A stretch of DNA of 64,000 bases from an uncultured Modestobacter sp. (GTDB lineage: Bacteria; Actinomycetota; Actinomycetes; Mycobacteriales; Geodermatophilaceae): contig NZ_CANKUD010000006.1 of assembly GCF_947486615.1 (NCBI RefSeq), forward strand, positions 1 through 64,000, written 5' to 3'. The notes under the pieces are model-generated. The model was not told the DNA's origin. It saw only the letters and a list, made by a program, of their open reading frames with translations, and did no database searches. How positions within the stretch are numbered: position 1 is the stretch's first letter; every line of letters starts with the position of its first letter. A program made the position numbers and the translations under genes. Positions 1 through 15,037 of this stretch are shown piece by piece.

Positions 1-131
<131 letters not shown>

Positions 132-208
132 GACGGAACTGTACGGCAGCTCTGCGTGTCGCTACGGTACGAGACTCAGCCTCTGCTCTAGGTCAGGCTC
201 CTGTGGTC

Positions 209-400: not shown

Positions 401-514
401 GGTGATCTCCTCATGTCTGAACTTGGGTTGGTGTGATGCCGATCACGACGGTAGGTCGAGCATCTGGCAAGGAGCTGTGAGTCGCAGCGAGGCTCCCATT
501 GCGGGTGAACGCAG

Positions 515-546
515 AACGGCCCCGCCTCCCAGGAGACGGGGGCGTT
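515..546. terminator. Imperfect GC-rich hairpin, possible terminator
   Basis: AACGGCCCCG and CGGGGGCGTT face each other across a short loop. The stem is GC-rich with one imperfection. It lies in the non-coding gap upstream of the zinc-ribbon gene and could end transcription from either side. Confidence 0.35.
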
Positions 547-635
547 CTCGTGCGCAGCAGCAGTCAACGTGACGAGCGGAATCGCTCGGGAGCCGCCGGG
601 GGTCCGTGAGTGCTCGGCATCGAAGATCTTGTTTC

Positions 636-860
636 CTAGTTGCGCTGAGAGAACAGGCGGCGTAGCCGCTTCCTCTCGTCGGGCTGCGACGTTGCCGTTC
701 GTTCTTCGTCGACCGTGCGGTGCAGTTCGAGAAGCACCTCGTTCGCTGCCCGCTGCCACTCGGGCAGCGACGAGTCGAGCGTCGCTCGGATCTCATCCAA
801 GGAGTTCTTCGCGCGAACTCGGTAGGCGAGTGCGCCGAGGGCCTGTCGACCCGGTCAACC
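636..860 (-). pseudogene. Possible C-terminal gene remnant, about 75 aa
   Basis: One minus-strand frame ending in TAG at 636-638 reads like real protein: Ala-, Glu-, Arg- and Leu-rich amphipathic helices ending RKRLRRLFSQRN. It has no ATG or GTG start, only a possible internal TTG, and an in-frame TGA stands just upstream, so it appears to be the tail of a decayed gene. I recognise no family. Apart from this fragment and the hairpin at 515-546, I see nothing coding between 401 and 937. Confidence 0.25.
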
Positions 861-937
861 GTGCGGCCTGCCAGGTTGGGTTTGCTTATCGCGATCTGAC
901 CGCGCAAAGGTCAGCCCTTATCAATTGCTGACGAGAG

Positions 938-1405
938 TCACTTGCCATTTTTGGGCCGGGCACGATACAGAAGAACCCCGGTGGTAACACTCAACAACGC
1001 TATGACTCCGTACCAGATCTCTCTCAGGGGAGGGGGTTCAGCTGCTGCAAGAATAGTGACGAAGGCGGCGATTGCTGCCCCGCCGAGGAGGCTCGCAATG
1101 GCTAGCAGCCAAGCCGACCACGCGTCTGGTGGCTCCGAAAGGCTTCGGGCGGCCGTGCGGACGTCCTCAACGTCGACCACCGTCGCGTGTCGGTCGCGGG
1201 CGAACTGAACCGCCGTGACGCCTAAACTTCGCGTGAATTCATCGCCCCTGGCAATCAGTTCGCTCCGCGCTTCAACGACCCATCCGGATAGCGTGGGTGG
1301 GGCGGCCATTGCCTTGTTGATAGCGTCTGTGACTGCGGCCTCTGTCAGCGCTACGGCTGGGCTGATGTCGGCTTCGGGAAGCTTCGGCTCCCTGCTCTCT
1401 GTCAC
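938..1405 (-). CDS. Histone-fold-like protein with two C-terminal membrane helices, 155 aa
   Basis: Start GTG at 1405, two bases after the stop of the upstream gene, so the two are co-transcribed and probably translationally coupled. Residues about 41-89 align without gaps to helix 2, loop 2 and helix 3 of archaeal histones such as HMfB. The visible matches are an EAR start, a FAR segment near residues 68-70, and the VEDVRTAAR stretch near 79-87 that corresponds to the KAEDIELAVRR region. A helix near residues 20-33 could be helix 1. Hydrophobic segments at about 98-121 and 129-147 predict two membrane helices, with a basic tail. The fold assignment is my own alignment by eye. If correct, this is a membrane-linked histone-fold protein, whose role could be dimerisation or tethering of DNA. 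The function is otherwise unknown. Confidence 0.6.
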   Translation of the reverse strand: MTESREPKLPEADISPAVALTEAAVTDAINKAMAAPPTLSGWVVEARSELIARGDEFTRSLGVTAVQFARDRHATVVDVEDVRTAARSLSEPPDAWSAWLLAIASLLGGAAIAAFVTILAAAEPPPLREIWYGVIALLSVTTGVLLYRARPKNGK

Positions 1406-1407
1406 CT

Positions 1408-1812
1408 CTAGGTCTTCTCCCCGTCTTTAGCGACGCCATAGACAGGGCCATCTTCGGGGGGTGATTGCAGTTGATTGGCTATTGTGAATCGGCGACTCAG
1501 CAGCCAATCTTGGATCTCTGGTGCAATATCCGAGTCTAGGCGATGGGCCTCGAAGTTCCTAAGCTCGTTCGGCCCATAAGCTTCAAGTGAGGCCGTTAAG
1601 CGGTCAAGCGCTCTTGCCTGTAGCTCTATTCGAGCCTCCGCGATCAGTCGCTCCGCCTCGTGCGTCCTTCGAGCAGAAAAGAACCCGACGATTCTGCCGA
1701 CGACGCCTGTCGCGGAAGCCCCAGCCAAAAGACCGGACAGTGTGGCAAGCAGGTGCGGGGAGAGGCTCACAAGGTCGATCGGCGCGCTGAGGATGTCGCC
1801 GACGCCTGTCAT
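1408..1812 (-). CDS. Membrane protein with coiled-coil segment, 134 aa
   Basis: This is the first gene of a two-gene minus-strand unit with the histone-fold-like gene. It starts with ATG at 1812. Residues about 18-47 form one hydrophobic stretch with small residues (LSGLLAGASATGVVGRIVGFF). It is followed by a charged, heptad-like helix at about 50-78 and a soluble tail. The product looks like a single-pass anchor with a cytoplasmic coiled coil. I recognise no family. The tight linkage suggests the two products act together, perhaps as a membrane complex. Confidence 0.6.
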   Translation of the reverse strand: MTGVGDILSAPIDLVSLSPHLLATLSGLLAGASATGVVGRIVGFFSARRTHEAERLIAEARIELQARALDRLTASLEAYGPNELRNFEAHRLDSDIAPEIQDWLLSRRFTIANQLQSPPEDGPVYGVAKDGEKT

Positions 1813-1841
1813 GCGGCGAATCTACCCTGCTAACGGATAGA

Positions 1842-2208
1842 TCAGTATGGGATGGCACTGGCATGTGCCCCACCAGCAGTCTCCGGGGTCAACGCGGCGA
1901 TCGGAGTCGCACTGGTTCTCCGGCGTTGCGCGGGCCGCGCCTCGCCAACGCCGTCGAGCAGCTCCGACGCCGCCGTGAGCGGGTAGTTCTCCGCCCGGTC
2001 GGGGCCGTCCTCGACGTCGACCGCGATGCGGCCAGCCTCGAAGTCGGAGGTGGCGCAGGCGAGCGAGGCGTCGGCGGGCGTCGTCGGCTCGACCGTCCTC
2101 CGGCGCTCCCTCCGACTGCTCCGCACCGCCCTCACGGCGACGACGCGCAGCGGCTCGACGGCGGAGGGCGGTCGGCGACAACGGGCTGAACATGGTCATC
2201 GAGGACAC
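1842..2208 (-). other. Non-coding or decayed stretch, no supported gene
   Basis: Between 1813 and 2324 no frame gives a convincing protein. One minus-strand frame contains a protein-like patch with acidic and hydrophobic alternation (DFEAGRIAVDVEDG), and a second frame carries a possible ATG at 2208 followed by Arg-rich nonsense. This could be an old pseudogene with frameshifts. I cannot assign it to a family. Confidence 0.25.
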
Positions 2209-2324
2209 GCAGGCTTCTGCCGAGTAGGCCGCCTACGCTCGGGTCTGCCTCCGCCGGGTACCCCCGTGTCCGGCGGAGGCCCTCGTGTAGCTGCTCACTC
2301 AGCATGGTCCAGCGCTAAGCCTTA

Positions 2325-2366
2325 CGGCACTGAGCCCCATCACCGTAATGACGGGGCTCAGTGCCG
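2325..2366. terminator. Perfect 14-bp hairpin terminator
   Basis: CGGCACTGAGCCCC at 2325-2338 is exactly complementary to GGGGCTCAGTGCCG at 2353-2366, with a 14-base loop. It sits just beyond the 3' end of the broken LGFP/Excalibur gene and is well placed to end its transcript. It could work in both directions. Confidence 0.75.
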
Positions 2367-2384
2367 CACTGTCACTGTTGACCG

Positions 2385-3140
2385 CTAGCGCGGGTCGATC
2401 TCGCAGGCGATTCCGTCGTAGTCGCGGTCAAGCCTCGGCGCCTTATCCCGGTTCCCCGCGGCGGAGCGGACGGTTTCTGGTGTTCCAGACGTCCGTGCAG
2501 TTGTCGTAGTACGCGTTCACTGGAGGAGTGGTGCCGCAGCCGACGACGACAGTGCCGCCGCTTGGGGTCCACTGAATCGATCCGCATTGGAAGTCTTAGG
2601 CGCGACCACCGGGGATGGAGAACTCGTCGGTGACCGGGAAGCCGAGTGCGCTGTTCTCCCAGCCCAGCCGTGCCCAACGGTCGCGAATCGCTCCGCCGAT
2701 GTTGTGCGCTCCGGTGGCGGAGACCAGTAGATCGAGCCGCCCTGGAAGTGGTTGTAGCGCCCGTACTTAAACGGTTTGCCGGACTCGTTGGTCAGCGGGA
2801 AGCCCAGGAACGAGTTCCCCAGCCCTGTGAACTCCACTTCTCCCAGATGGCGCCAGGCACTCCGTGTGCACCTGCCCCCGGCGTCCAGTAGATCCCCCCG
2901 TTCTGGAACAGGCTGTAGCGACCGAAGACAGCTGGGGTGACGCGCTCGTCCGTCAGCGGCAGCCCGAGCGCGCTCGCCGCACCACCGAGCGCACGGTAGT
3001 TGTGGAGGATGGCGCCTACTACTTGCCGGGTGCCACCATCCGGCGACGGATAGGGGTCGGCTGTGGCGGTCGGCGCCAGGGTGACTGCTGCGGCGGTCGT
3101 TCGTTGCTTGGACGCCCCGAGTCAGTACGGCGGGCACTGA
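2385..3140 (-). pseudogene. Broken secreted protein: LGFP repeats plus C-terminal Excalibur domain
   Basis: Reading the minus strand across frames recovers one coherent protein. It starts with the end of a signal-like region (TLAPTATADPYP). Three LGFP-type repeats follow, with motifs [53 protein letters not shown] and a final FQCGSIQWTP. After a linker, an Excalibur calcium-binding motif reads YYDNCTDVW, PLRRGEPG and LDRDYDGIACE, ending in TAG at 2385-2387. At least three single-base frameshifts and one in-frame TAA between GGRA and DFQ break the frame. LGFP repeats occur in actinobacterial exported proteins and are thought to bind the cell envelope. Excalibur domains are small Cys and Asp-rich extracellular modules. 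The lesions mostly fall next to G or C runs, so sequencing indels are a real alternative to gene decay. Confidence 0.7.
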
Positions 3141-3728
3141 GCCCCCGGCCTTGGTCGTTCGCTGGTGGCTGTGGTGCAGTCGGTCACCGCTCTGTTGGCC
3201 CTGTGACCGCTAAAAAGGTACTTGGCCACGCACGGGCCCGTTGGCCCGGAGTCCTGGGTCGACAAGCCACAGCTGCGTACGTGTCGCACGGACCCGAAGA
3301 ACTGGCCCATACGATTCGGGGGCGTCCGTCCGAGAGTTGGCCGACCTGCCTAGCATGCGGGTAGGCATACGCGCCGTGCTGGGGCAGACCGAAGCCGGAC
3401 AGTGCAATTAATCTTGTCGTACAGGCATCGCTTACTCATCGAAAACGTGCTGAGACGAGCTCATGCAGCCAACGTCGCCCAACGGTATACGTGCTGGTGA
3501 GAGCTAATGCTCGCCAATATCCAACGTTGATCAACTACGTCAAGATCAATTCGCAGGGTTATAGGTTCACGTCCTATCGGGGGAGCCGCGTCGGACCGCT
3601 CACCGGCGGAACGTCGATCCGGGGTGTCGGCTCGGCAGCCTCGACGTGATCGGATCGATCGACTTCGTGATCGGGCTCGCTGACTCGGGTCAGGGGCTCC
3701 GCCCTGAGGGCGTTGAGCGATCCAGCAC
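3141..3728. other. Intergenic stretch, no gene seen
   Basis: No frame on either strand carries recognisable protein or a start with a ribosome binding site. I see no strong hairpin or repeat. Base composition is more AT-rich than the DNA to the right. It separates the decayed left-end region from the peptide-transporter island. Confidence 0.4.
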
Positions 3729-5573
3729 CTACCCGGCGGCGCCGCTGCTGCGCGCACCGCTGCCGGACGGCGTCAACTGCTCGAGGCCTCTCGTGTCCGT
3801 CCTCGCCGCGGACCTCGGTGCGACCCCGGCACCATCGACCGCCGCGGTGGCCGGCCAGACGTCGTCGCGTGTCATCGGGGTGGCGCGTTCGGGGACCGAG
3901 TGCACCGCGCTCTCCAGATCGGGGCGGGTCGATGGGTCGTCGAGGCGAAGAACGCGATCCGCCCGGGCGAGGAACGCCGAGGAGTGCGTCGCCACGATCG
4001 TGACGCGGTCGTCGCGCTGCCGGTCGATGATGTCGAGCACCGCGGCTTCGGTGGCTGGGTCCAGGTGAGCGGTGGGCTCGTCGAGCAGCAGCAGTGGCCG
4101 ATCGCTGGCGACGGCTCGAACGATGGACAGGCGTTGCCGTTCTCCGCCCGACAGGCTGGTACCGCTCCGTTCGAGGGGGGTGTTGAGCCCCTCGGCACTG
4201 AGGCGATCGGCGAGTCCGATCGCGGTGAGCAGGTCGAGCAGCGTGGAGTCATCCACCGATCCGGGTCCGCCCGGGGCGAGGAACGTGCGGATCGTGGCCC
4301 CCAGGGTCGGCGTTCCCTGCTCCACGTACGCGATGCTCCGCCAGAGGTCCGTGGGTGACCAGTCGGCCAGTTCGCGGCCCCCCACCGTGATGCGTCCGGA
4401 TCGAAGTGGGGCGAAGCCGGCGATGGCCGACAGCAGCGTGGTCTTCCCCGATCCGCTGGGGCCGACGAGACACACGAGTTCCCCCTTCCTCGCCAGCACG
4501 GACACCGGGCCTATCTCGACGCCTTCACTCGCTGAGACGACGGCCTGCTCGATCTCGACCGAGGGAGCGGGCCGCGGCACATCGAGGGCGCTGTCACGGC
4601 GTTCGGGCCGCGAGGAGTCCGCAGGCAGTTCGTCCAGTCGCGTTTCGGCAGCACGTGCCCGCTGCACCTGCTGCAGCATGTCGGCATACCTCGCCGCGGG
4701 GGCGAGCAGGATCGCGAGCGCGCCGAGGAAGCCGGAGATCTCGGCTCCCGAGGCAGCTCCGCGGGACACGAGGACCATGCCGAACGATCCGAGGGAGATC
4801 AGCAGGAGCAGCGAGGTGGATTTCACGATGAGGTCGACCAGGGCCTGAGCGTGGCCGACCCGGCGTTCCGCCACGGCGACTTCCCCGAGTTTCGTGTCGA
4901 AGCGGCGCAGATAGTCGGGGGCCAGTCCGAAGACGGTCGCAGATCTGATGGACCGCAGGTACTCGCCGATGTCGGCCGTCGTGGCCGCCAACGCGCTGAG
5001 CCCCTGGGACGCGCGCTCCTTGACCGGGCGTATGACCACGCCGATCACGAGACCCACGATGATCAGAGCAGCGAAGAGCGCCAGGGTCAGTCGCCAGTCG
5101 AACACGACCATCAGCCCGAGGCAGCCGACGACGGTGATCACGGCCGTGCGCCGTCGGATCCGGTCGGCGGTCAGGAGCGGTTCGAGCTCGTTGACGTAGT
5201 GGCTGTAGAGCGCCGTGGCCTCTTCGACGCCGAGCCGCTCGACGTTGCGGGGCGCCAGCCGGATGAGGCGCTCTGCGACAGCGACCCGCAGTCGCTTCAT
5301 CTCGGTCGCCGCAACGCGGGTCAGGAGCAGCACCTGCCCGGCCGCGAAGCCGCCGGCGACCAGCACGGCCAGCAGCATGGGGGCCCAGATGGGCGGTCCG
5401 ATGGGGTCACCGTCGAGCACTCGAGCGACGCCGTAGGCGACTGCGACCGGCACGGCCAGCTCGACCACCGCTGCGAGCACCGCGAAGGCCTGCGCGATCC
5501 AGCGAGCTCGCCGGCTGACCCGGGCACCCGCGATCGGCGCTGGTCGACCGTCCTGCCCACTCGAGGTGCTCAT
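3729..5573 (-). CDS. ABC exporter, fused membrane and ATPase domains, 614 aa
   Basis: A half-transporter of the type that exports peptides, lipids or drugs as a homodimer. Residues about 25-290 hold the membrane domain with six hydrophobic segments. The nucleotide-binding domain follows, with Walker A GPSGSGKTT near 371, signature SLSGGERQR near 473, Walker B LLLLDEPTAHLD, and switch His in VATHSS. About 60 residues follow the ATPase core as a low-complexity tail. The ATG overlaps the stop of the upstream permease gene (ATGA), so the two are translationally coupled. It is the last gene of the minus-strand operon that begins with two precursor-like genes, so export of their products is the natural guess. 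No N-terminal C39 peptidase domain is present, so it would not itself cleave a leader. Confidence 0.85.
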   Translation of the reverse strand: MSTSSGQDGRPAPIAGARVSRRARWIAQAFAVLAAVVELAVPVAVAYGVARVLDGDPIGPPIWAPMLLAVLVAGGFAAGQVLLLTRVAATEMKRLRVAVAERLIRLAPRNVERLGVEEATALYSHYVNELEPLLTADRIRRRTAVITVVGCLGLMVVFDWRLTLALFAALIIVGLVIGVVIRPVKERASQGLSALAATTADIGEYLRSIRSATVFGLAPDYLRRFDTKLGEVAVAERRVGHAQALVDLIVKSTSLLLLISLGSFGMVLVSRGAASGAEISGFLGALAILLAPAARYADMLQQVQRARAAETRLDELPADSSRPERRDSALDVPRPAPSVEIEQAVVSASEGVEIGPVSVLARKGELVCLVGPSGSGKTTLLSAIAGFAPLRSGRITVGGRELADWSPTDLWRSIAYVEQGTPTLGATIRTFLAPGGPGSVDDSTLLDLLTAIGLADRLSAEGLNTPLERSGTSLSGGERQRLSIVRAVASDRPLLLLDEPTAHLDPATEAAVLDIIDRQRDDRVTIVATHSSAFLARADRVLRLDDPSTRPDLESAVHSVPERATPMTRDDVWPATAAVDGAGVAPRSAARTDTRGLEQLTPSGSGARSSGAAG

Positions 5574-6367
5574 CGGGCTGCCCGGTCGCGCCGGAGGCTG
5601 AGGACGGCCATGGTGGCGAGCACGAGCGCGCAGGCGACTGTGGGCGCCACGTGCGCCAGATCAGGTCCGGGCACCAGCAGTTCCGATGTCGCTGCCCGGG
5701 GCAGCCACACGCTCCCTCGACCGAGGAGACCGGTGAGCAGAGGTTCGAGTCCGACCAGGTAGACGATCATCGCGATCGTGATCGCGACCCACCGGCGGGT
5801 CAGGGCCGCCAGTCCGAACGCGATGAGACCGATGAGCACCCCTTGCGCGGCCGCTCCGGCAATGGTCGACCCAGCACTGTGCCACGCGGAGAGATGCGCG
5901 ACCTCCGGTGCTCCCGAGATCGCCGCGTCAGTTCCGGCGAGCGCGACCACGGCCGATGCGGCACCAGCGACACCGACGAGGACGAGGACGATCCCGGCGC
6001 GCACGAGGAAGAGGCGCCGCAGGCGTCGGGTCGCCACCGCGAGCTGCAGCAGTGCCCCCGACGACATCTCGCCACCAGCAGCGCGTACGCCGAGGGCGAT
6101 CGCCGCGATGGGGACGAGCATCGTCAGGCTGCTCCGGGCCATCGCGGCGAGCTCGTCGTCGGTGGAGCCGGCGTCGAGGACGGTGCTGGTCTGGAGCTGG
6201 AGTCCACCGCCCCCGGACGACGCGTCTCCCGTGGCGACGTTCACGGCGAGGTAGCTGAGCACCCCGCACAGACCGACGAGGGCGCCCATCGTGACGAGCG
6301 TGACCGGGTCACGGGTCCATCGGGGGAGTTCAGCCTTCACCGTGCGCAGGCTGTCGGGGACGGTCAT
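5570..6367 (-). CDS. ABC-2 type permease, 265 aa
   Basis: A membrane protein with about six hydrophobic segments, starting around residue 25 (LVTMGALVGLCGVLSYLAV) and continuing to the C-terminus. This is the layout of ABC-2 permeases that pair with a separate ATPase. I chose ATG at 6367 because GAGGAG lies six bases upstream. It overlaps the end of the ATPase gene by 38 bases and its own stop overlaps the next ATG, so three transporter genes are tightly coupled. In antibiotic-peptide clusters such ATPase/permease pairs often give producer immunity. That role is inferred from context only. Confidence 0.8.
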   Translation of the reverse strand: MTVPDSLRTVKAELPRWTRDPVTLVTMGALVGLCGVLSYLAVNVATGDASSGGGGLQLQTSTVLDAGSTDDELAAMARSSLTMLVPIAAIALGVRAAGGEMSSGALLQLAVATRRLRRLFLVRAGIVLVLVGVAGAASAVVALAGTDAAISGAPEVAHLSAWHSAGSTIAGAAAQGVLIGLIAFGLAALTRRWVAITIAMIVYLVGLEPLLTGLLGRGSVWLPRAATSELLVPGPDLAHVAPTVACALVLATMAVLSLRRDRAAR

Positions 6368-7310
6368 GGAACCTCTCCTCAAGGGTCGCGTGGCGTTCCT
6401 CGGAAGTGAGCACGGGGATCCCTGCCTCGCCGAGGACCCGGTTCGCGGCGGAGGCGTCGTGGCTGAACACCACCGGGGCTCCGGAGCTGTCTCGTCGGCA
6501 GTGCAGGCCGGCGTGGGTGAGGAGGACCTGGGCGCGGTCCGTGTCGGCCCTGCTCATCCGCAAGATCGTCATCTGGTGCGTGCCGACGAAGTCGTTCGTC
6601 GGACCGCCGAAGACGAGCCGTCCTCGGTCGAGCACCAGCAGGTGGCTGCACGACGACTCGACCTCGTGCAGATCGTGGCTGGACAGCAGCACGGTCCGCC
6701 CCTCACCGGACAGCTGGATGAGGAGCTCACGTATCCGTTGGCGGGCGTCTGGATCCAGCCCGTTCATCGGCTCGTCGAGGAGCACGAGCTCGGTGCCGAC
6801 CAGGATCGCGGCGGCGAGCGACAGGCGTTGCCTGTTGCCCAGCGACAGACGGCTCAGTCGGGTCCGCATCTCCGCGGCGATGTCGACCAGCTCGGCCACG
6901 CGGGCGACGTCCCCTCGTGAAGCGCCGGACAGTCGCGCGAGGTAGGTGAGGTTCTTCCGCACGGTCCACGTCGGCCACATCGCCATGCCGTCGGTGGCCG
7001 CGCCGACGCCCCGCCCCACCGATTCGTGAGCGGAGATGTCGGTGCCGAACTGCTCGACCCTCCCAGCCGATGCCCGCTGGACGCCGGCGAGGATCCGGAG
7101 CAGCGTCGACTTGCCGCTGCCGTTGGCTCCGACCAGGCCGACGACCGTTCCCCGGTGGAGGGAGAACGAGATGTCCTCCAGTGCGGTTCGGTCCCCGTAG
7201 ACGTGGCGGAGGTGCTCGACGGTGCAGATCCCGGCTTCGTTGACGATGATCGTCTTCCTCCTGCATGGAGGGATGCCCCTCCCCCGGCGGGGAGCCGGAG
7301 GGAGGGACAC
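6330..7310 (-). CDS. ABC transporter ATPase subunit, 306-326 aa
   Basis: A stand-alone nucleotide-binding protein: Walker A GANGSGKST, signature LSLGNRQRLS, Walker B LVLLDEPMNGLDP, switch LSSHDLHEV, then a C-terminal region of about 90 residues as in DrrA or BcrA-type ATPases. It should energise the permease encoded next. The start is odd. Homology begins at about VEHLRHVYGDRTALEDISF, and a perfect AGGAGGA sits at 7256-7262 five bases before ATCATCGTC, with no ATG, GTG or TTG there. The only usual in-frame start is GTG at 7310, which lacks a good binding site and adds a Pro/Arg-rich N-terminus. Either ATC at 7250 is used, or a base is wrong. Confidence 0.8.
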   Translation of the reverse strand: MSLPPAPRRGRGIPPCRRKTIIVNEAGICTVEHLRHVYGDRTALEDISFSLHRGTVVGLVGANGSGKSTLLRILAGVQRASAGRVEQFGTDISAHESVGRGVGAATDGMAMWPTWTVRKNLTYLARLSGASRGDVARVAELVDIAAEMRTRLSRLSLGNRQRLSLAAAILVGTELVLLDEPMNGLDPDARQRIRELLIQLSGEGRTVLLSSHDLHEVESSCSHLLVLDRGRLVFGGPTNDFVGTHQMTILRMSRADTDRAQVLLTHAGLHCRRDSSGAPVVFSHDASAANRVLGEAGIPVLTSEERHATLEERFHDRPRQPAHGEG

Positions 7311-7330
7311 CCTGTGAAGGTCGGACCGGC

Positions 7331-7732
7331 TCAGCCGCCGTAGCTGGCGCAGACGACCACACCGACGCTGACGCAGAAGCCCATGCGCGGGTCGAGACCC
7401 GGGCGGACCTGCACGAGCGGCGACTGCGAAGCGTGCCCGTCCTCGGGGAGCTCGAACTCCCGTGTCGTCAGACGGAGTCCCTCCGGGGTGGGCACGCCGT
7501 AGCTCTGGAGCGTGGGCACGTTGGCGGTCTCTGCCGTGTACTCACGCCGCTCCGAGTACGTCGGCATCGCGGCGATGCCGTTCACGTAGTCGAGGAACCC
7601 GTCCGTCGAGATGATGTCGATGAACTGGTCGATCTGCTTCGTGACCGCTTCCTTGTTGACCCGGTGGCGGATCTCGGCGATCGTCCGGTCCACCTCGGTG
7701 GGCTCGGCGGTGCGGGTGTCTGCGAGGGACAT
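7331..7732 (-). CDS. Candidate peptide precursor with NHLP-like leader, 133 aa
   Basis: ATG at 7732 with AAAGGA seven bases upstream. The N-terminal part is helical (KQIDQFIDIISTDGFLDYV near 32-50). It is followed by YGVPTPEGLRLTTREFE at about 78-94, which resembles the G-x-PEG-(V/L)-x-(V/L) segment ending nitrile-hydratase-like leader peptides. The C-terminus is a small-residue and Cys-rich tail, MGFCVSVGVVVCASYGG (117-133), with Cys at 120 and 128 and three Ser. A paralogue of almost the same length lies two genes upstream. This is the architecture of a RiPP precursor, but no recognisable modifying enzyme lies in the window, so the end product is unknown. A short GC-rich stem-loop lies in the 80-base gap before the ATPase gene and could reduce transporter expression relative to this gene. 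Confidence 0.6.
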   Translation of the reverse strand: MSLADTRTAEPTEVDRTIAEIRHRVNKEAVTKQIDQFIDIISTDGFLDYVNGIAAMPTYSERREYTAETANVPTLQSYGVPTPEGLRLTTREFELPEDGHASQSPLVQVRPGLDPRMGFCVSVGVVVCASYGG

Positions 7733-7782
7733 GACAGTTCCTTTCATCGGGGGACCTTCCATTGCTGGAACCTCAGGGAGTG

Positions 7783-8223
7783 CTAGGAGGACTGAGCCGC
7801 GTAGGCCTGGAGAGCGGGAAGCCACGTCGCGTCCTTCGTCGTGCCGGACCACCACGTGTAGCCGACCAGGACGGCGATGCGTTCGCCGCTCCTCAGGTCG
7901 AGCACCAGGGGAGCACCGAGGCGCTTGACGGCGCCGAAGGACGGAAATCCTCCACGGGCTCCGGCAGCGGTGACCCGGCTGTACTGCGGGAGGAACTCCA
8001 TGGAGACGTTCAGCACGTCCGCGGAGGACAGAGTCCGCCACGAGCCGAGCGTGAGGACGTCACCCGCCAACTCGATTCGGCCGCGGTGGGGAAAGAGGAC
8101 CCGCTGGTCCACGACAGCGGCGACCCGGCGGGGTTTCGTGCTCTTCCGGAGCTCGTCGACGGTCGCTGCGTGATAGGTGTCGGACAACGACGTTCGTCCC
8201 TGTGTCACGTTCGCCTCGACCAC
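7783..8223 (-). CDS. Small soluble protein of the precursor operon, 146 aa
   Basis: It lies between the two precursor-like genes and starts three bases after the stop of the first, at GTG 8223. A second GTG at 8208 with GAGG five bases upstream is an alternative start. The sequence is beta-rich, with LFPHRGRIELAGDVLTLGSW near 45-64 and a conserved-looking C-terminal block containing RGGFPSFG, APLVLDLRSGERIAVLVGYTWWSG and a WLPAL end. There are no membrane helices or signal peptide. The pattern suggests a PH-like or lipocalin-like barrel, but I cannot name a family. Its position argues for a role in handling, binding or immunity toward the exported peptide. Confidence 0.6.
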   Translation of the reverse strand: MVEANVTQGRTSLSDTYHAATVDELRKSTKPRRVAAVVDQRVLFPHRGRIELAGDVLTLGSWRTLSSADVLNVSMEFLPQYSRVTAAGARGGFPSFGAVKRLGAPLVLDLRSGERIAVLVGYTWWSGTTKDATWLPALQAYAAQSS

Positions 8224-8226
8224 TTC

Positions 8227-8631
8227 CTACACCCCGGCAGGGATCGAGTCGCTGTCGAAGGTGTACGTGACCTTTCGGACGCCGTCCGGCATGAGCTTGG
8301 TGACGCAGAAGATCGTGGGCCGGTTGTCGCCGAACTGCGACCGCTGGATCTTCATGCCCTCGGGGATCGTGATGTTCCTGGCCCGGAGCCTGGCGCTGTC
8401 GAGCAGCTCGGTCCGGACGAACTCGTCGCGGTCTTCGGGTGCACGGTCGTAGAGGTCGCCCAGCAGGGTGATGAACTCGTCCGTGGTGATGAAGTCCCGG
8501 ATCTCCTCGAGGCCTGCCCGAGCTTCGTTGCGCACTGCTTCACGAGTCAGGGGCGGCAAGGGCGAGTCGTCCTCGACCCTCGGGTAGTCGATCCGTTGCA
8601 GATTGGCGTACGAATGTGTGCGGTCGTCCAT
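8227..8631 (-). CDS. Second candidate peptide precursor, paralogue of the 7331-7732 gene, 134 aa
   Basis: First gene of the minus-strand operon. ATG at 8631 follows GGAGGA by five bases. Residues 41-60 (LEEIRDFITTDEFITLLGDL) match the helical block of the downstream paralogue, and 86-94 (NITIPEGMK) match its PEG segment. The same segment recalls nitrile-hydratase-like leaders, in which a PEGV-type turn is followed by alternating hydrophobics, here TIFCVTKLMP. The C-terminal tail (VTYTFDSDSIPAGV) differs from the paralogue and has no Cys. The only Cys is residue 109. It may be a second precursor, an immunity protein, or a leader-only helper. A perfect palindrome 30 bases upstream is the likely operator. 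Confidence 0.55.
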   Translation of the reverse strand: MDDRTHSYANLQRIDYPRVEDDSPLPPLTREAVRNEARAGLEEIRDFITTDEFITLLGDLYDRAPEDRDEFVRTELLDSARLRARNITIPEGMKIQRSQFGDNRPTIFCVTKLMPDGVRKVTYTFDSDSIPAGV

Positions 8632-8980
8632 CGCCGTCCTCCAGGTGCGAAGCCGAAGTGCGACAGGATGTCCTGTCGAATTCGACCTTGTCAGCGATGG
8701 ACGGTTGGTCACATCGGCCGCCTGGCCAGAGGTCGAGCCCGCCGACCGGGCTACTCCGGGCCTGCGGGAGATCCGCCGAACGGATCGGGCGGGCGTCCCC
8801 CGGCTCCTGTGGGCGGTTGCCGGCTTCGCGCCAATCGGGCAGCGGGAGCGGCCTGCAGACGAGTGGTCGCGGGCCCTCGAGTGGCCTCGCATGATGGCGG
8901 CCGTGGCCGGTCGGCCCACTACGATCGATGCGAGGTGAGACACAACGACCGCGCTGAAGTGACCGAGGGGCGGTGAGGTC
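8632..8980. other. Divergent intergenic region with regulatory palindrome
   Basis: About 350 bases separate the minus-strand peptide/transporter operon from the plus-strand kinase gene. I see no gene in it. Its notable content is the perfect palindrome at 8661-8678. Promoters for both directions should lie here, but I could not identify convincing -35 and -10 boxes. Confidence 0.6.
8661..8678. promoter_or_regulatory. Perfect palindrome, probable response-regulator operator
   Basis: CGACAGGA-TG-TCCTGTCG is an exact inverted repeat of two 8-base arms with a 2-base centre. NarL-type regulators bind two 7-base half sites separated by 2 bases, and the divergent gene pair encodes such a regulator. 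The site ends 30 bases before the ATG of the first operon gene, so it overlaps or abuts the expected promoter. Confidence 0.6.
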
Positions 8981-10201
8981 GTGACCACGAGGTCGGCGCC
9001 GGATCGCGAGCGACGCCTCCGGTCATGGGCGTGGTCTGGGCTCTACCTCGTGGTCATCGCCTCGTTGACCGTCATCGCGACAAGTGGGATGGACGGTTGG
9101 CAGCAGACGGTGTTCCTCGCTCTCGCCGTCGCGGCCGGAGCTGCGACGCTGGTGCGCCATCGATGGCCGCATGCCCTCGTGGTGGTCGCCTGGACCACCA
9201 CCGCGTTCGCGACGCAGGTGCTCCTCATCCCCGCGCTGTTCAACTTGGGCGTCCGGAGACGGCATCGTGGGGACCTGGTCGTGCTGGTCGCAACGGTTCT
9301 CCTGCTGGCGGCTGTTGCCCCCAGGGGAGAACGACTGGTGTCCATCGACGGCGTGGACCTCGAGAGCTGGATGAGTCTCGGCAGTTGGGTGCTCAACGGG
9401 ATCGTCGTCGTCATCGTCCCCTACCTGATCGGCACGGCCATCGGCGTGCGTCGCGACCTGGTGGAGAGCTACCGGCTCCGTGCTGAGCACGCCGAAGCCG
9501 AGCGGACTGCGCGAGCGGCCGAGGCCGTGCTCCTCGAACGCGCTCGGATCGCGCGTGAGGCACACGACGTCCTCGGCCACAAGTTGTCGCTCCTGACCAT
9601 GCAGGCCGGGGGTCTGGAACTCAACGCAGGCGCCGATGCCGAGGTGGTCGAGAAGCAAGCCCGGCTGATCCGGCAGAGTGCCCGCGATGCGCTGCAGGAC
9701 CTGCGGTTCATCATCGGCTCCATCGAGACACCAGATCCACTCGCTCCCGGATACGGTGACCGCTCGCTGACACCCGAGGACCTCTGCGGAATACACAAGC
9801 TGGTGGGAGAGAGCGTGTCCAGTGGCGCGATCGTCGATCTGGCGGAGTCGAACCTCCGTCATCCCGAACAGTTGCCCCAGGACATCTCCCGAGCCGCCTA
9901 TCGGGTGGTACAGGAGGGCCTCACCAATGCTCATCGGCATGCGCCCGGGGCGCCGGTGATCGTCTCGCTCTCCGGCGCCCCGGGGGAGCAGTTCGTGGTC
10001 GAGGTCCGGAACACCGTCACCGTGCCCGAGGGAAAGGACCATGCGGAGCACTCCGGGGGGCGGGGCATACCCGGCCTGGAGGAACGGGCGCGCGTCGTCG
10101 GGGGTGAGCTGACGGTGACGGAGGCCGATTCCGTGTTCATCGTCCGCGCACGGCTGCCATGGCAGGACACCCACGCTCAGCGAACGGAGAGACGACCGTG
10201 A
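8981..10201 (+). CDS. NarL-family sensor histidine kinase, 406 aa
   Basis: Start GTG at 8981. Hydrophobic segments at about 18-33, 42-56, 63-84, 97-113 and 134-155 form a membrane sensor region without a large outside domain. A coiled stretch (159-190) leads to the HisKA_3 dimerisation helix with ARIAREAHDVLGH, where His195 is the expected phosphorylation site. The C-terminal ATPase contains the AYRVVQEGLTNAHRHA N-box and GGRGIPGLEERA G-box. The stop overlaps the regulator start (GTGA). Membrane-embedded sensors of this type often respond to envelope stress or to a membrane-active peptide, which would fit the divergent transporter operon. That link is inferred. Confidence 0.9.
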   Translation: MTTRSAPDRERRLRSWAWSGLYLVVIASLTVIATSGMDGWQQTVFLALAVAAGAATLVRHRWPHALVVVAWTTTAFATQVLLIPALFNLGVRRRHRGDLVVLVATVLLLAAVAPRGERLVSIDGVDLESWMSLGSWVLNGIVVVIVPYLIGTAIGVRRDLVESYRLRAEHAEAERTARAAEAVLLERARIAREAHDVLGHKLSLLTMQAGGLELNAGADAEVVEKQARLIRQSARDALQDLRFIIGSIETPDPLAPGYGDRSLTPEDLCGIHKLVGESVSSGAIVDLAESNLRHPEQLPQDISRAAYRVVQEGLTNAHRHAPGAPVIVSLSGAPGEQFVVEVRNTVTVPEGKDHAEHSGGRGIPGLEERARVVGGELTVTEADSVFIVRARLPWQDTHAQRTERRP

Positions 10202-10860
10202 CGCGCATACTGATCGTCGACGACGACCCGCTCGTGCGGGCCGGTCTGCGTTTCATCCTCGGTACGGCCGACGACTTCGAGGTCGTCGGTGAGGCATCGG
10301 ATGGAGCCGAGGGCATCGAGCAGACCATGCTCGTGGCGCCCGATGTCGTGCTCATGGACCTCCGGATGGCCGGCATGGACGGGCGTGAGGCGACCGCTGA
10401 GCTCATGACGTTGCCCGCTCCGCCGAAGGTCCTCGCCCTCACGACTTTCGACACCGATTCCCACGTCATCTCGGTACTCGATGCCGGGGCCAGTGGGTAC
10501 CTGCTCAAGGACACGCCGCCGGCGGAGATCATCGATGCGGTCCGGGAGACAGCCAGAGGGGGCACGATCCTGTCGTCCCGCCACACCCGAGTCCTCCTGG
10601 ACAAGTACTCCGAGAACAGCATGCACGCGCGTCACCACCAAGCCAGAGAGGCGCTCGACCGACTCACCCAACGTGAACGGGAAGTGGTGCGCTATGTGGC
10701 GGAGGGGCTCACGAACGCGGAGATCTCCGAACGCATCTACTGCTCACCCGCGACCGTGAAGGCGCACCTGGCGAGCATCTTCTCGCAGCTCCAGCTCGCC
10801 AATCGAGTGCGTCTGGCGATCATCGGCCACGACGCAGGCGTGCTCGAGGACAGGAACTAG
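10198..10860 (+). CDS. LuxR/NarL-type response regulator, 220 aa
   Basis: GTG at 10198 overlaps the kinase stop by four bases. The receiver domain (residues 1-120) has the acidic triad D8-D9-D10, the phosphorylation site D54 in VLMDLRM, the conserved Thr in LALTTFD and Lys in YLLKD. A C-terminal LuxR-type helix-turn-helix covers about 152-208 (LTQREREVVRYVAEGLTNAEIS, then TVKAHLASIFSQL). It should bind an inverted repeat as a dimer, and the 8661-8678 palindrome is the obvious candidate. Together with the kinase it probably controls the divergent precursor/transporter operon. Confidence 0.92.
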   Translation: MTRILIVDDDPLVRAGLRFILGTADDFEVVGEASDGAEGIEQTMLVAPDVVLMDLRMAGMDGREATAELMTLPAPPKVLALTTFDTDSHVISVLDAGASGYLLKDTPPAEIIDAVRETARGGTILSSRHTRVLLDKYSENSMHARHHQAREALDRLTQREREVVRYVAEGLTNAEISERIYCSPATVKAHLASIFSQLQLANRVRLAIIGHDAGVLEDRN

Positions 10861-11338: not shown

Positions 11339-12970
11339 TCAGTCCTCCAGCAGCCAGACGGCGGTGTTCGGCGGGAGGGCGATGGTGCCGGCCCGATCGT
11401 GCACCCGCGCGGCCGAGGCCAGCAGCACCGAGCCCGACGTCCGCTCCAGCACGGTCTCGCTGCCCATGTTGACCACGCAGCGCACCACCTCGTCGTCCCC
11501 GACGCAGCGCACGGTCAGCACGTCGCCCTGGGTGCTGACGACCGCTTCGCCGGAGCCGAGGGCCGGGTGTGCCGCCCGCAGCGCGAGCGCCCGGCGGTAG
11601 AGGGTGAGCATCGAGCCGCCGTCACGCGTCTGGGCGGAGACCGCGTAGCGGTCCCAGTCGGCCGGGATGGGCAGCCACGGTTCCGCGGAACCGTCGGGGG
11701 AGAAGCCGACGCCGTCCGAGGCGTTCCACGGCATCGGCACCCGGCAGCCGTCACGGCCGGCGCGGGCCCCGCCGCTGCGGAAGAAGATCGGGTCGGTCTT
11801 CGCCTCGTCCGGCACCACGGCCTGCGGCAGGCCCAGCTCGTCGCCGGCGTACAGGTAGGGCGAGCCGGGCAGCGCCAGCACCATGAGCGCGGCCGCCCGG
11901 GCCCGCGCGGTGCCGAGGTCGCCGCCGCCGAAGCGGGTGACTTGGCGGTCCTTGTCGTGGTTGCCCAGCACCCAGGAGACCGGGGCGCCGACCTGGCTGA
12001 ACGCGTCGAGCGCGGTCTGCACGCCGTCGGCGAAGGCGGCGGTGTCCCACGGCGACTTCAGCAGCCGGAAGGAGAACGACTGGTGCATCTCGTCGGGGCG
12101 GGAGTACAGCGCCACCTGGCTCAGGTCGGCCAGGCAGACCTCGCCGACCAGCATGGCGTCCTCGTACTCGTCGCAGACCGACCGCCACTGGCGCCACACG
12201 TCGTGCACCTCGGGCTGGTTCCAGGTCATCGCCTGCTCCGGGCCGTGGCCGAACAGGGTGGGGGAGTAGGCGCCCGGGTTGTCGCGCAGCTGCGCGTCCT
12301 TGAACAGGCCGTAGGCGACGTCCACCCGGAAGCCGCTGACACCCCGGTCCAGCCAGAACCGCAGGGTCTTCTCGAAGTCGGCGGCCACCGCCGGGTCGCG
12401 CCAGTTCAGGTCGGGCTGCTCGGGGGCGAACAGGTGCAGGTACCAGCGGCCGTCCGGGGTGCGCGACCAGGCCGGCCCGCCGAACAGCGACTGCCAGTTG
12501 TTCGGCGGCTCCTCGGACGCGGGTGCGAAGTGGTAGCGGGACGCCTCGGGGGAGTCCGGGTCGGCCAGTGCCGCCTGGAACCAGGGGTGCCGGTCGGAGG
12601 TGTGGTTCGGGACGACGTCCAGCACCACCCGCAGGCCGAGCCGGCGGGCGTCGGCGACGAGGGCCTCCAGGTCGGCGACGTCGCCGTAGTCGGGGTCGAC
12701 CGCCCGGTAGTCGCAGATGTCGTAGCCGCCGTCGGCACCGCCGGAGGGGTAGTGCGGGTTGATCCACAGCGCGTCGACGCCCAACCAGGACAGGTAGGGC
12801 AGCCGGGCGCGCAGCCCGGCCAGGTCACCGATGCCGTCGCCATTGCTGTCGGCGAACGAACGCAGGTAGACCTGGTAGACCACGGCCGTGCGCCACCAGG
12901 GCGAGGCCGAACGCTCGGGGGCGACCTGCTGCTCGGTCGCGGTCCCCACAGAGGCGAGCCGACGTGACAT
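11339..12970 (-). CDS. GH13 alpha-glucosidase, 543 aa
   Basis: A glycoside hydrolase family 13 enzyme of the oligo-1,6-glucosidase/alpha-glucosidase group that releases glucose from the non-reducing end of alpha-glucosides in the cytoplasm. Visible GH13 regions: VVLDVVPNHTS (region I), GFRVDVA with the nucleophile Asp (region II), MLVGEVC with the acid/base Glu (region III) and VLGNHDKDR with the transition-state Asp (region IV). QPDLNWRDP near the middle is typical of the subfamily. A calcium-loop-like DSNGDGIGDL is present near the start. I place the start at ATG 12970. A TTG at 13021 would add 17 residues. There is no signal peptide. No sugar transporter or LacI regulator is adjacent. Confidence 0.88.
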   Translation of the reverse strand: MSRRLASVGTATEQQVAPERSASPWWRTAVVYQVYLRSFADSNGDGIGDLAGLRARLPYLSWLGVDALWINPHYPSGGADGGYDICDYRAVDPDYGDVADLEALVADARRLGLRVVLDVVPNHTSDRHPWFQAALADPDSPEASRYHFAPASEEPPNNWQSLFGGPAWSRTPDGRWYLHLFAPEQPDLNWRDPAVAADFEKTLRFWLDRGVSGFRVDVAYGLFKDAQLRDNPGAYSPTLFGHGPEQAMTWNQPEVHDVWRQWRSVCDEYEDAMLVGEVCLADLSQVALYSRPDEMHQSFSFRLLKSPWDTAAFADGVQTALDAFSQVGAPVSWVLGNHDKDRQVTRFGGGDLGTARARAAALMVLALPGSPYLYAGDELGLPQAVVPDEAKTDPIFFRSGGARAGRDGCRVPMPWNASDGVGFSPDGSAEPWLPIPADWDRYAVSAQTRDGGSMLTLYRRALALRAAHPALGSGEAVVSTQGDVLTVRCVGDDEVVRCVVNMGSETVLERTSGSVLLASAARVHDRAGTIALPPNTAVWLLED

Positions 12971-13139
12971 GTCGCCATCATCGGCACGCTCGTCGTCGAG
13001 TCGTGTGCTCTGGGTCACCAATGACGAATGAGATGTCTGTCGGATCTCGCCAACCAGCGGGCGTCTGCGCTGGTGGGCCTGGGTGTCCGGTGGTGTGCGA
13101 CCGGATGTGCCACGCTGGGTTCAGGGCCCGACGCGGCCC

Positions 13140-13180
13140 CCGGACGAGGGTGCCGTACCCGGACTGCGACAAGACGGCAC
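13140..13180 (+). promoter_or_regulatory. Guanidine-III riboswitch (ykkC-III / PreQ1-like fold)
   Basis: The segment from CCGGACGAGG through GTGCCGTACCCGG to GACAAGACGGCAC matches the known guanidine-III aptamer almost base for base. GTGCCGT pairs with ACGGCAC, and the conserved CGGACGAGG, ACCCGG and GACAAGA elements form the pseudoknot and ligand pocket. It stops one base short of the ribosome binding site GGAGGAG of the SMR gene, so guanidine binding should open translation of the exporter. The identification rests on my memory of the consensus. Confidence 0.85.
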
Positions 13181-13193
13181 GGAGGAGACCCCC

Positions 13194-13508
13194 ATGTCCT
13201 GGCTCGTGCTCGTGCTGTCCGGCGTCCTCGAGGCCGTCTGGGCCACCGCTCTCGGTCGGTCGGAGGGCTTCACCCGGCTCGTCCCGACGCTCGTGTTCGC
13301 CGTCTCCGTCGTCGCCAGCATGGTCGGCCTCGCCTACGCGATGCGCACGCTCCCGGTGGGAACGTCCTACGCGGTCTGGGTCGGCATCGGCGCCGCGCTC
13401 ACCGTGGCCTACGCGATGGCCACCGGCGAGGAGGCGGCATCGGTGGCCAAGGTGCTGCTGCTGCTCGGCATCGTCGGCTGCGTGATCGGGCTCAAGCTGC
13501 TGCACTGA
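13194..13508 (+). CDS. gdx: SMR-family guanidinium exporter, 104 aa
   Basis: A four-helix small multidrug resistance protein. The conserved Glu in the first helix (GVLEAVWATALG, E13) binds substrate and protons. The helix-3 and helix-4 pattern (VGTSYAVWVGIGA and LLLLGIVGCVIGLKLL) fits the Gdx/SugE branch rather than the EmrE branch. It acts as an antiparallel dimer in the inner membrane, swapping guanidinium for protons. Its leader is a guanidine-III riboswitch, which independently supports guanidine as substrate. The ATG at 13194 follows GGAGGAG closely. Confidence 0.92.
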   Translation: MSWLVLVLSGVLEAVWATALGRSEGFTRLVPTLVFAVSVVASMVGLAYAMRTLPVGTSYAVWVGIGAALTVAYAMATGEEAASVAKVLLLLGIVGCVIGLKLLH

Positions 13509-13559
13509 CGCCGTTCACCTGATGGTTGAGCGGGTGTGGCCTGGGGCACACAGTCGAGC

Positions 13560-13814
13560 GTGAGCACGTACGCCGTCGGATTCGCCCGCCCCGACCGCAG
13601 GTCGTGGGCGCAGCCGGTCGACCAGCCGATGTCCTGGCACGCCGTGGAGGCGCACCGCCCCACCGACGAGCTCGACGGGGAGGTCGAGCTCGCCGTCTGC
13701 GGGGCGATCGTGCAGGTCTGGGGTGCCCAGCGCTGGGACCGGATGAGCGCCGGGCGGTCCACCTGCGGGGAGTGCCGGCAGCGGACCGCACCGGAGCTCC
13801 GGCGCGTCGGTTAG
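13560..13814 (+). CDS. Small conserved-type hypothetical protein, 84 aa
   Basis: GTG at 13560 opens an 84-residue frame with a soluble, Trp-containing sequence (WAQPVDQPMSWHAVEAHRP, later VWGAQRWDRMSAG) and a CGEC pair near the C-terminus. A single CxxC would need a partner or other ligands to bind metal. There is no obvious ribosome binding site. It is convergent with, and overlaps by four bases, the acyl-CoA dehydrogenase gene. Codon use looks like real coding for this genome. I recognise no family. Confidence 0.5.
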   Translation: MSTYAVGFARPDRRSWAQPVDQPMSWHAVEAHRPTDELDGEVELAVCGAIVQVWGAQRWDRMSAGRSTCGECRQRTAPELRRVG

Positions 13815-15037
13815 ATCGACTGCGGCGGCTCGGCCGGCTTCTGCTCCGCGCGGGCCGACCGCCTGCCGGTGATCGCCGAGATTCCGGTGATGTCCCGGCC
13901 CACGATCAGCGCCTGCACGTGGTCGGTGCCCTCGAAGGTGTAGATCGCCTCGATGTCGGCGTGGTGCCGGGCGATGTGGTGCTCCAGCAGGATGCCGTCA
14001 CCACCGAACAGGTCCCGGGCGTCGGCCACGATCTGCCGGGCCTTCTTGCAGTTGTTCATCTTCGCCATCGAGGCCATCGCCGCGGTCATCCGACCCTCGT
14101 CGGCCAGCTTGCTCAACCGCCAGCTCAGCAGCTGCATGCTGGTGATCTCGGCCAGCATCCGGGCCAGCTTCTCCTGCACCAGCTGGTAGCCGGCGATCGG
14201 CTGGCCGAACTGCTCGCGCTGCATCGTGTGCTCCAGCGCCAGCTCGTAGGCGGCCTCCGCGATGCCCAGCGCCCGCCACGCGACGGTGTACCGGGTGCGG
14301 TCCAGCACCACCGACACGTCCTTGAACGAGCGGCAGTTGGCCAGCTTGTTCTCCGCCGGCACCCGCACCTCGTCCAGGGTGATCTCCGCCTGCCACACCG
14401 CCCGCAACGCCGTCTTGCCGGTCATCCGGGTCGCCGTCCAGCCGATCGACCCCTTCGGGACGACGTAGCCGCCGACCGCGCCGTCCTCGTCCCGGGCCCA
14501 GATGAGCACCAGGTCGGCGATGGTGCCGTTGCCGATCCACTTCTTCGCACCCGTCAGCACCCACTCGTCGCCGTCGCGGCGGGCCCGGGTCTCCAGCGCC
14601 ACGGCGTCCGAACCGTGCTGCGGCTCGGTCAGCCCGAAGGCGCCGATCAGCTCCATCCGGGCCATCGCCGGCAGCCAGCGCTCCCGCTGCTCCTCATCGC
14701 CCAGCAGCGCGATCGACTGCATCGCCAGGAAGCTGTGCACGCCATAGAAGGTGCCCAGGCTGCCGTCGGCGCGGGCCCACTCCGCGGCGACCAGGCCGGC
14801 GGCGACCGCGCTCATCCCGGCCGAGCCGTAGCCGGCCACGGTGCCGCCGGCGATGCCCAGCTCGGCAATCTTCGGCACCAGCTCAAAGGGGAACTCGGCC
14901 CGCTCCCAGTAGTCGTTGATCACCGGGGTGACCTCGCGGGTGCAGAACTCCCGGACCCGGTCGCGGACCTCGATCTCCGCAGGCTCCAGCAGGTCCTCGA
15001 GGGCGTAGAAGTCGGGGGTGGTGGCGTCGTTGCTCAC
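13811..15037 (-). CDS. Acyl-CoA dehydrogenase, glutaryl-CoA dehydrogenase-like, 408 aa
   Basis: An FAD enzyme that oxidises an acyl-CoA at the alpha-beta bond. Domains run in the usual order: N-terminal helical (about 1-130), beta-barrel with FGLTEPQHGSD and KKWIGNG flavin/substrate motifs, and C-terminal helical. YTFEGTDHVQALIVGRDITG carries the catalytic Glu in the position used by the glutaryl-CoA dehydrogenase branch. Start GTG at 15037, with TAGCGT seven bases before it and no binding site, so probably leaderless. The neighbours give no pathway. Lysine/tryptophan degradation is possible but not shown. Confidence 0.87.
   Translation of the reverse strand: MSNDATTPDFYALEDLLEPAEIEVRDRVREFCTREVTPVINDYWERAEFPFELVPKIAELGIAGGTVAGYGSAGMSAVAAGLVAAEWARADGSLGTFYGVHSFLAMQSIALLGDEEQRERWLPAMARMELIGAFGLTEPQHGSDAVALETRARRDGDEWVLTGAKKWIGNGTIADLVLIWARDEDGAVGGYVVPKGSIGWTATRMTGKTALRAVWQAEITLDEVRVPAENKLANCRSFKDVSVVLDRTRYTVAWRALGIAEAAYELALEHTMQREQFGQPIAGYQLVQEKLARMLAEITSMQLLSWRLSKLADEGRMTAAMASMAKMNNCKKARQIVADARDLFGGDGILLEHHIARHHADIEAIYTFEGTDHVQALIVGRDITGISAITGRRSARAEQKPAEPPQSI

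Follow-up and report, generated by a model that had tools for sequence, protein, structure and literature searches.

A candidate switch-controlled ABC operon for two paralogous, cysteine-bearing small proteins in Actinomycetota, with related pairs on phage contigs and a plasmid

What do three small genes with no credible match to a known family do at the head of an ATP-binding cassette (ABC) transporter operon? The question is raised by positions 3729 to 10860 of contig NZ_CANKUD010000006.1 from an uncultured Modestobacter sp., of which the first 64,000 nt were analysed (hereafter the window). Open reading frame (ORF), Pfam and NCBIfam analyses gave eight open genes at this locus: on the minus strand, in order of transcription, sp1, sp2, sp3, an ABC ATPase, an ABC-2 type permease and a fused exporter, and on the plus strand a histidine kinase and a response regulator (Table 1). 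An earlier note on this DNA had described the same layout, and it was confirmed, the ATPase and exporter by family match, the permease by its 6 hydrophobic spans and its relatives, and the divergent pair as a HisKA_3 kinase with a NarL/LuxR-type regulator. We tentatively read the locus, giving this somewhat less than an even chance, as a mobile operon under switch control whose product would be a bacteriocin-like, cysteine-bearing effector or signal made of two proteins.

The reading starts from the relationship between sp1 and sp3. Pairwise comparison left no recognisable likeness between them (BLASTP, E = 0.11). Profile-profile alignment (hhalign, seven rows each) matched 63 columns with a score of 62 (E = 3.1e-10); the maximum of 100 column shuffles was 20.2, and the reversed profile scored 9.9. 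By this comparison sp1 and sp3 are paralogues of one undescribed family, as the earlier note had held. They have in common a helical domain that closes in a G-x-x-x-P-x-G turn, and the PEG turn that the earlier note had described was present as IPEG in sp1 and TPEG in sp3. The tails beyond the turn differ. That of sp1 retained R-P-T-x-F-C-V in all seven rows (invariant residues R104, P105, T106, F108, C109, V110 and K112). That of sp3 carried two cysteines, each opening a C-x-[ST]-x-G motif, likewise in 7/7 rows, with a cysteine spacing of 8 in the Actinomycetota carriers and phage contig L015, 9 in phage contig L014 and 12 in Hymenobacter. We count this combination of a shared N-terminal domain with divergent cysteine-bearing tails in favour of a two-protein effector or signal. 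An N-terminal extension of sp1 (residues 1-28, RIDYP..E.D...PPL) was restricted to the members linked to ABC genes, which suggests that it may serve sp2 or the pump.

The ratio of nonsynonymous to synonymous substitution rates (dN/dS) was 0.15-0.24 for sp1 and 0.19-0.36 for sp3 overall, and 0.20 and 0.19, respectively, between the window and the Brevibacterium locus L003; the comparison of the two Corynebacterium loci (L006 and L024) had few differing sites and carries little weight. On these codon comparisons, sp1 and sp3 are clearly under purifying selection. The dN/dS of sp2 was 0.18 between the window and L003 and about 0.5 toward Curtobacterium, and judged by these ratios its selection in that direction is looser than that of sp1 and sp3. 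At the protein level, sp1 and sp3 ranked among the best conserved products of the locus (76% and 80% identity to B. linens vs. 60-65% for the transporter proteins). This difference bears on another explanation of the locus, that of an ordinary two-component/ABC operon for drug or peptide resistance, with the small proteins as accessory sensors or adaptors. A HisKA_3 kinase, a NarL-type regulator, a DrrA-like ATPase and an ABC-2 permease make up a usual resistance layout, and LiaRS/NarL-type two-component systems paired with ABC pumps are a known arrangement, which the locus resembles in its kinase and regulator families and its divergent pump operon. Here, however, the pump operon is headed by three small genes that belong to an undescribed family, two of them encode proteins better conserved than the pump, and sp1 and sp3 also occur elsewhere with no pump seen. 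We therefore consider a plain resistance operon improbable.

A search of genome_contigs with 70 pattern stretches found sp3 relatives in four genomes (Brevibacterium sp. S111, B. linens ATCC 9172, Curtobacterium pusillum and Corynebacterium gottingense), and a later scan added a second carrier of the genus Corynebacterium. The bacterial-genome carriers are the window, L003 and L004 (Brevibacterium), L005 (Curtobacterium), L006 (C. gottingense) and L024 (Corynebacterium). All six showed sp1, sp2, sp3, ATPase and permease in the same order, in support of the proposed operon. An orthologous kinase/regulator pair adjoined it in five of the six (the window, both Brevibacterium and both Corynebacterium). 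The fused exporter had orthologues at 65% in the two Brevibacterium loci and at 52% in Curtobacterium; the best matches in C. gottingense were at 27-29%. The system is rare: carriers amounted to 2 of 57 Brevibacterium genomes, 2 of 242 Corynebacterium genomes and 1 of 299 genomes drawn from the Curtobacterium family. Only the window itself was recovered among 112 genomes of its own family (sp2 query), 394 of its class (sp3 alignment) and 396 of its phylum (sp1 alignment), these three sets being overlapping.

The operator-like palindrome that had been placed in the divergent region proved to be a perfect one of 18 bp. Its core, ACAGGANNTCCTGT, lay 31 bp ahead of the sp1 start in the window, and the Brevibacterium counterpart, ACAGGAAATCCTGT, likewise lay 31 bp ahead of sp1. 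In all three genomes scanned (that of the window, 4.7 Mb, and those of Brevibacterium), ACAGGANNTCCTGT occurred exactly once, always before sp1; its presence there was fixed by the design of the pattern, so that the informative result is its absence elsewhere. The pattern read backwards had zero occurrences in the same genomes. These results favour a dedicated switch, at which the divergent kinase/regulator pair would act.

A second candidate control element is a predicted RNA hairpin between the sp3 and ATPase genes. With 200 dinucleotide shuffles, its z-score was -3.9 in the window, -4.65 in L003, -4.3 in L006 and -3.2 in L024; L004 has the same stem, so that five of the six carriers have the hairpin, and its sequence differs among the three genera. 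Its recurrence agrees with a controlled operon. Since the hairpin has no U-run, it is more likely to be an attenuator or a processing site than a full terminator. In L005, we also observed at about 6948-6965 a perfect palindrome of other sequence, GTAGGCCGTTCGGCCTAC, with the same 8+2+8 geometry as that of the window, about 125 bp before sp1.

The operon behaves as a horizontally spread island. In each of the five relative loci, its guanine-plus-cytosine (GC) content was lower than that of either flank, by about 3-7 points or, in the Corynebacterium loci, by 9-12 points (operon 53.4% vs. flanks 62-66%). In the window, the operon (68.7% GC) was lower than the downstream stretch from 11.3 to 64 kb (74.1%) and higher than the first 3.7 kb (64.3%). 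The two Corynebacterium loci shared 6.2 kb at 95% identity, extending into the next exporter gene; their other aligned pieces were mostly 75-87% identical. Genes for a TrwC-type relaxase, a Fic protein and a serine recombinase are neighbours of the B. linens copy. Between them, the Brevibacterium loci show 96.8% identity over 15.4 kb; as near-identical islands, they are not independent. In L024, a 527-bp piece from the start of the exporter gene that follows the operon, 96% identical, was found on both sides of the operon (5469-5994 and 11512-12037), possibly a scar of its insertion.

None of the three small proteins had a credible match in Pfam, NCBIfam, PHROGs or PADLOC, the last of which matched none of the 8 locus proteins scanned. 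A match to a known enzyme family, named beforehand in the earlier note as speaking against its proposal, was looked for and did not occur. That no known family in these collections fits the small proteins is counted in favour of a new effector or signal. A sequence search of solved structures found no credible match for sp1, sp2 or sp3. Two rows of the sp3 type reached the RedH model at its N-terminus (E = 0.03 and 0.15), and the sp3 profile matched a phosphoenolpyruvate synthase chain (E = 0.08); both matches fell on the G-x-P-x-P-x-G stretch and were set aside as short-motif likenesses, and the likeness of the sp3 PEG turn to these enzymes (E = 0.03-0.15) is probably convergent. The predicted model of sp1 was fair (mean predicted local distance difference test score [pLDDT] 76.9; four helices and three strands, the helices above 85). 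It had no PDB match below E = 0.5 with Foldseek, none at Z of 5 or more with VIA-align (best 4.4) and none below E = 0.28 in a viral structure library, although a fold missing from such lists is not thereby proved absent. Dimethylformamidase (6lvv) was reached only at E = 4.4. The sp3 model was poor (mean pLDDT 58.5), and its structure search was uninformative (best Z 3.4). A literature search that included sequence strings found no publication on the sp1/sp3 family; the accessible part of PMC5719810, which describes Brevibacterium bacteriocins, was covered and its supplements were outside that coverage.

The earlier note had likened sp1 and sp3 to precursors of the nitrile-hydratase-like leader peptide (NHLP) class. 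This leads to a second explanation, in which the two proteins would be NHLP-type leader-core precursors of a ribosomally synthesized and post-translationally modified peptide (RiPP), with Cys, Ser or Thr modified by an enzyme encoded elsewhere and the product exported by the ABC genes. The helical domain and the G-x-x-x-P-x-G turn are indeed NHLP-like, as is the tie to three ABC genes. Against twelve NHLP leader and nitrile hydratase alpha rows, sp1 and sp3 aligned in register over the proline turn and scored 20.7 and 21.5 vs. maxima of 17.0 and 15.8 in 100 shuffles (hhalign probability 7.5% and 9.9%, 18-26 columns), and the sp3 tail bears Cys, Ser and Gly. A proteusin precursor (8tb1) ranked 50th in the Foldseek search with the sp1 model, at a nonsignificant E of 5.1. 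TIGR03793 (cut-off 50.9 bits), however, had no match at E ≤ 10 among the 14 rows of the sp1 and sp3 families, and none above its cut-off in five carrier genomes and one phage record (G954 left out). Motif 1 is given as IKKAWSDEEFKQALLNN in Table 3 of PMC2887384, in the part of that paper available; sp1 by eye reads DEFITLL, with no motif 1 Trp, and the hhalign match stops short of that stretch. No Gly-Gly precedes the tails of sp1 or sp3, the tails are conserved where NHLP cores are hypervariable, and no C39 peptidase exporter (TransCleave) was seen: C39 was absent from the fused exporter among the 25 of 31 Pfam families listed, and its match to TIGR03796 begins at model position 161. With conserved tails and no match to any NHLP model, membership in that class is unsupported, and the proposed kinship was not borne out.

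The nearest published layout is NHLP-Burk, which the pair looks somewhat like. As far as the available part of PMC2887384 goes, NHLP-Burk precursors occur as tandem pairs and contain about 15 inserted residues ahead of the proline motif, and their cleavage-region motif is given as N/A in Table 3. The likenesses are tandem paralogous small proteins, one partner with a C-terminal Cys, a proline turn past the shared domain and, by eye, an extra stretch before the turn relative to NHLP. In our set, sp1 and sp3 were directly adjacent in L014, L015 and the Hymenobacter plasmid and separated by sp2 in the ABC-linked operons. Unlike NHLP-Burk, the pair is found on phage contigs, in Bacteroidota and in Actinomycetota, and in the last of these it is joined by sp2, ABC genes and a two-component system; TIGR03795, the NHLP-Burk model, matched none of the 14 rows, and the operon has no cyclodehydratase, nor was a cyclodehydratase-docking protein found among the eight genes or, by Pfam, among five flanking ORFs. 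The claim that the operon holds no modifying enzyme was upheld. LANC_like and MNIO were also not found in the genome of the window (a genome-wide search that did not extend to YcaO or radical SAM); across the six carriers, LANC_like was found in one and MNIO in none, which disfavours these two modification routes. Taken with the absence of an enzyme gene from the shared operon, these results leave a RiPP pathway an unlikely explanation. An annotated NHLP precursor on a Spirosoma oryzicola plasmid (L031, 133-468) was seen to have a core start, STPFCAIGYGF, loosely like the sp3 tail.

The sp1-sp3 pair was also found on two phage contigs and one plasmid, which fits a mobile effector. In L014, it lies between HNH endonuclease and terminase genes, the sp3-like gene first and the sp1-like gene joined to it by an ATGA overlap. 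In L015, it is downstream of a terminase-like gene (no Pfam match; about 25% identity to annotated terminases), and the terminases of the two contigs match different phages. The 15-kb Hymenobacter monticola plasmid NZ_CP094539.1 (L008/L009) carries sp3-like and sp1-like genes followed by a CPBP/Rce1-like protease gene, and a divergent gene for a bPH_2 protein lies upstream of the pair; the sp1-like gene spans the record origin and is missing from the PLSDB gene table. Repeated scans of viral_contigs gave the same two contigs only, one scan gave none, and no sp2 relatives appeared in the viral_contigs scan. Among 50,697 phage records, none matched the phage-type sp1 and sp3 of L014 and L015 (the window proteins were not used as queries). 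One of 72,556 plasmids carried the pair, and none was found with the sp3 of the window as query. The linkage of the pair to ABC genes claimed in the earlier note thus stood for all six bacterial carriers and did not extend to the phage contigs and the plasmid, where no ABC genes were seen alongside.

These contexts raise a third explanation, that the pair is an intracellular folded two-protein module for stress response, phage defence, superinfection exclusion or toxin-antitoxin action, and that the Actinomycetota kinase and ABC pump respond to the same stress. Presence on a plasmid and on phage contigs with differing terminases would suit such a module, as would the tight coupling of the genes in L014, the confidently predicted helices of sp1, the lack of a hydrophobic span in sp1, sp2 and sp3, and tails that are conserved rather than hypervariable. 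On the other hand, an export-type ATPase and permease accompany the pair in six of six bacterial carriers, PADLOC matched none of the 8 proteins, the hairpin could favour an excess of the small proteins over the pump, and it would be unusual for the two partners of a toxin-antitoxin system to be paralogues. Release by lysis and an intracellular module would suit the phage-contig pairs equally well. We regard the intracellular module as possible, though on the doubtful side.

Several observations weigh against an exported effector or signal under a common switch. No sp2, ATPase or permease was seen by the pairs on the phage contigs and the plasmid; for L014 the neighbours were ORFs over the 5-12 kb of the locus, the gene table of the Hymenobacter plasmid may be incomplete, and the L015 contig stops 74 bases past sp1, so that a pump beyond its end is possible. 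Within the operon, we identified neither a secretion signal nor a cleavage site, nor a peptidase. Strong conservation of the tails across phyla is not what most bacteriocin cores show, and the conserved tail of sp1 forms the last two predicted strands of its model (pLDDT about 78-83), which favours a folded protein over a leader followed by a loose core. Both Corynebacterium loci have two full-length exporters downstream and no close orthologue of the fused exporter. The operator was absent upstream in Curtobacterium and C. gottingense (L024 was not scanned), and because the two Brevibacterium copies are one lineage, its conservation rests on two genera. Curtobacterium has no hairpin between sp3 and the ATPase gene (z = -0.25) and only a lone, diverged regulator (39% identity) in the usual place (6230-6940). 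Beyond its exporter (12456-14105) lie another regulator (40%) and a partial kinase match (28%), so that the operon in Curtobacterium may be under different control.

If the two-protein effector or signal is nonetheless the right reading, the system might work as follows. Stimulation of the membrane kinase would cause the regulator to act at the unique palindrome ahead of sp1. The three small genes would be transcribed first, and the hairpin past sp3 would keep their output higher than that of the pump genes. Together, sp1 and sp3 would form the effector (bacteriocin-like) or signal, their cysteines perhaps joined in disulfides or used in other chemistry, with sp2 as a dedicated partner, chaperone or immunity protein. 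The ATPase and permease, plus the fused exporter where present, would export the pair, protect the producer or both; phages would carry the pair without the pump, possibly releasing it by lysis.

A working analogue may be seen in those two-peptide leaderless bacteriocins that are encoded with ABC genes and PH-domain partners. Enterocin DD14, in the part of PMC8657885 available, is such a two-peptide bacteriocin, encoded with PH-domain proteins and ABC genes. Likenesses to it are two effector genes, partner proteins, an ABC transporter and no modifying enzyme, and a bPH_2 protein gene adjoins the Hymenobacter pair. Unlike its short peptides, sp1 and sp3 are proteins of 133-134 aa, and no stretch of positions 8643-9324 was conserved with B. 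linens by blastn; sp2 has no PH-domain match in Pfam. A more far-reaching version would make the pair the founders of a new effector family: two folded, unmodified proteins that share a domain, carry conserved cysteine tails (doubled C-x-[ST]-x-G; RPTxFCV) and move among islands of Actinomycetota, phages and a plasmid of Bacteroidota, leaving the cell through a dedicated, switch-controlled ABC operon in Actinomycetota and by lysis in phages; this we think conceivable and rather unlikely in its full extent. If it were true, the curated family models tried here would be missing an undescribed small-protein pair that is common to bacterial islands, phages and a plasmid and that has a switch, an operator and a pump of its own in Actinomycetota.

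Table 1. Positions in the window of the genes and sequence elements at the locus
Feature	Position	Strand	Description
sp1	8227..8631	-	134 aa; sp3 paralogue, helical domain, C-terminal RPTxFCV
sp1 residues 104-112, RPTIFCVTK including Cys109	8296..8322	-	Stretch conserved across phyla
sp2	7783..8223	-	146 aa; no hydrophobic span; seen in ABC-linked operons only
sp3	7331..7732	-	133 aa by the start shared with relatives; sp1 paralogue
sp3 C-terminal tail GFCVSVGVVVCASYGG	7334..7381	-	Doubled C-x-S-x-G motif; sequence, family alignment
RNA hairpin between sp3 and ATPase genes	7270..7313	-	Strong, predicted; z -3.9; no U-run
ABC ATPase	6330..7244	-	DrrA-like, 304 aa from GTG 7244 (listed ORF start 7310); Pfam/NCBIfam
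ABC-2 type permease	5570..6367	-	265 aa; 6 hydrophobic spans; relatives in four loci
Fused transmembrane-ATPase exporter	3729..5573	-	614 aa; Pfam/NCBIfam; no peptidase domain seen
Palindrome, operator candidate	8661..8678	.	Perfect, 18 bp; core ACAGGANNTCCTGT at 8663-8676
Membrane histidine kinase	8981..10201	+	HisKA_3 type; 4 hydrophobic spans
Response regulator	10198..10860	+	NarL/LuxR type; GTG start overlaps kinase stop

The permease had no significant Pfam match (best E = 1.1). An alternative start of sp3, an upstream ATG at 7747, would give a protein of 138 aa. Positions 1-3700 of the window, the stretch of low GC content noted above, hold few convincing genes, along with an ORF with LGFP repeats (2517-3137, minus strand), and are probably island or remnant DNA adjoining the operon.

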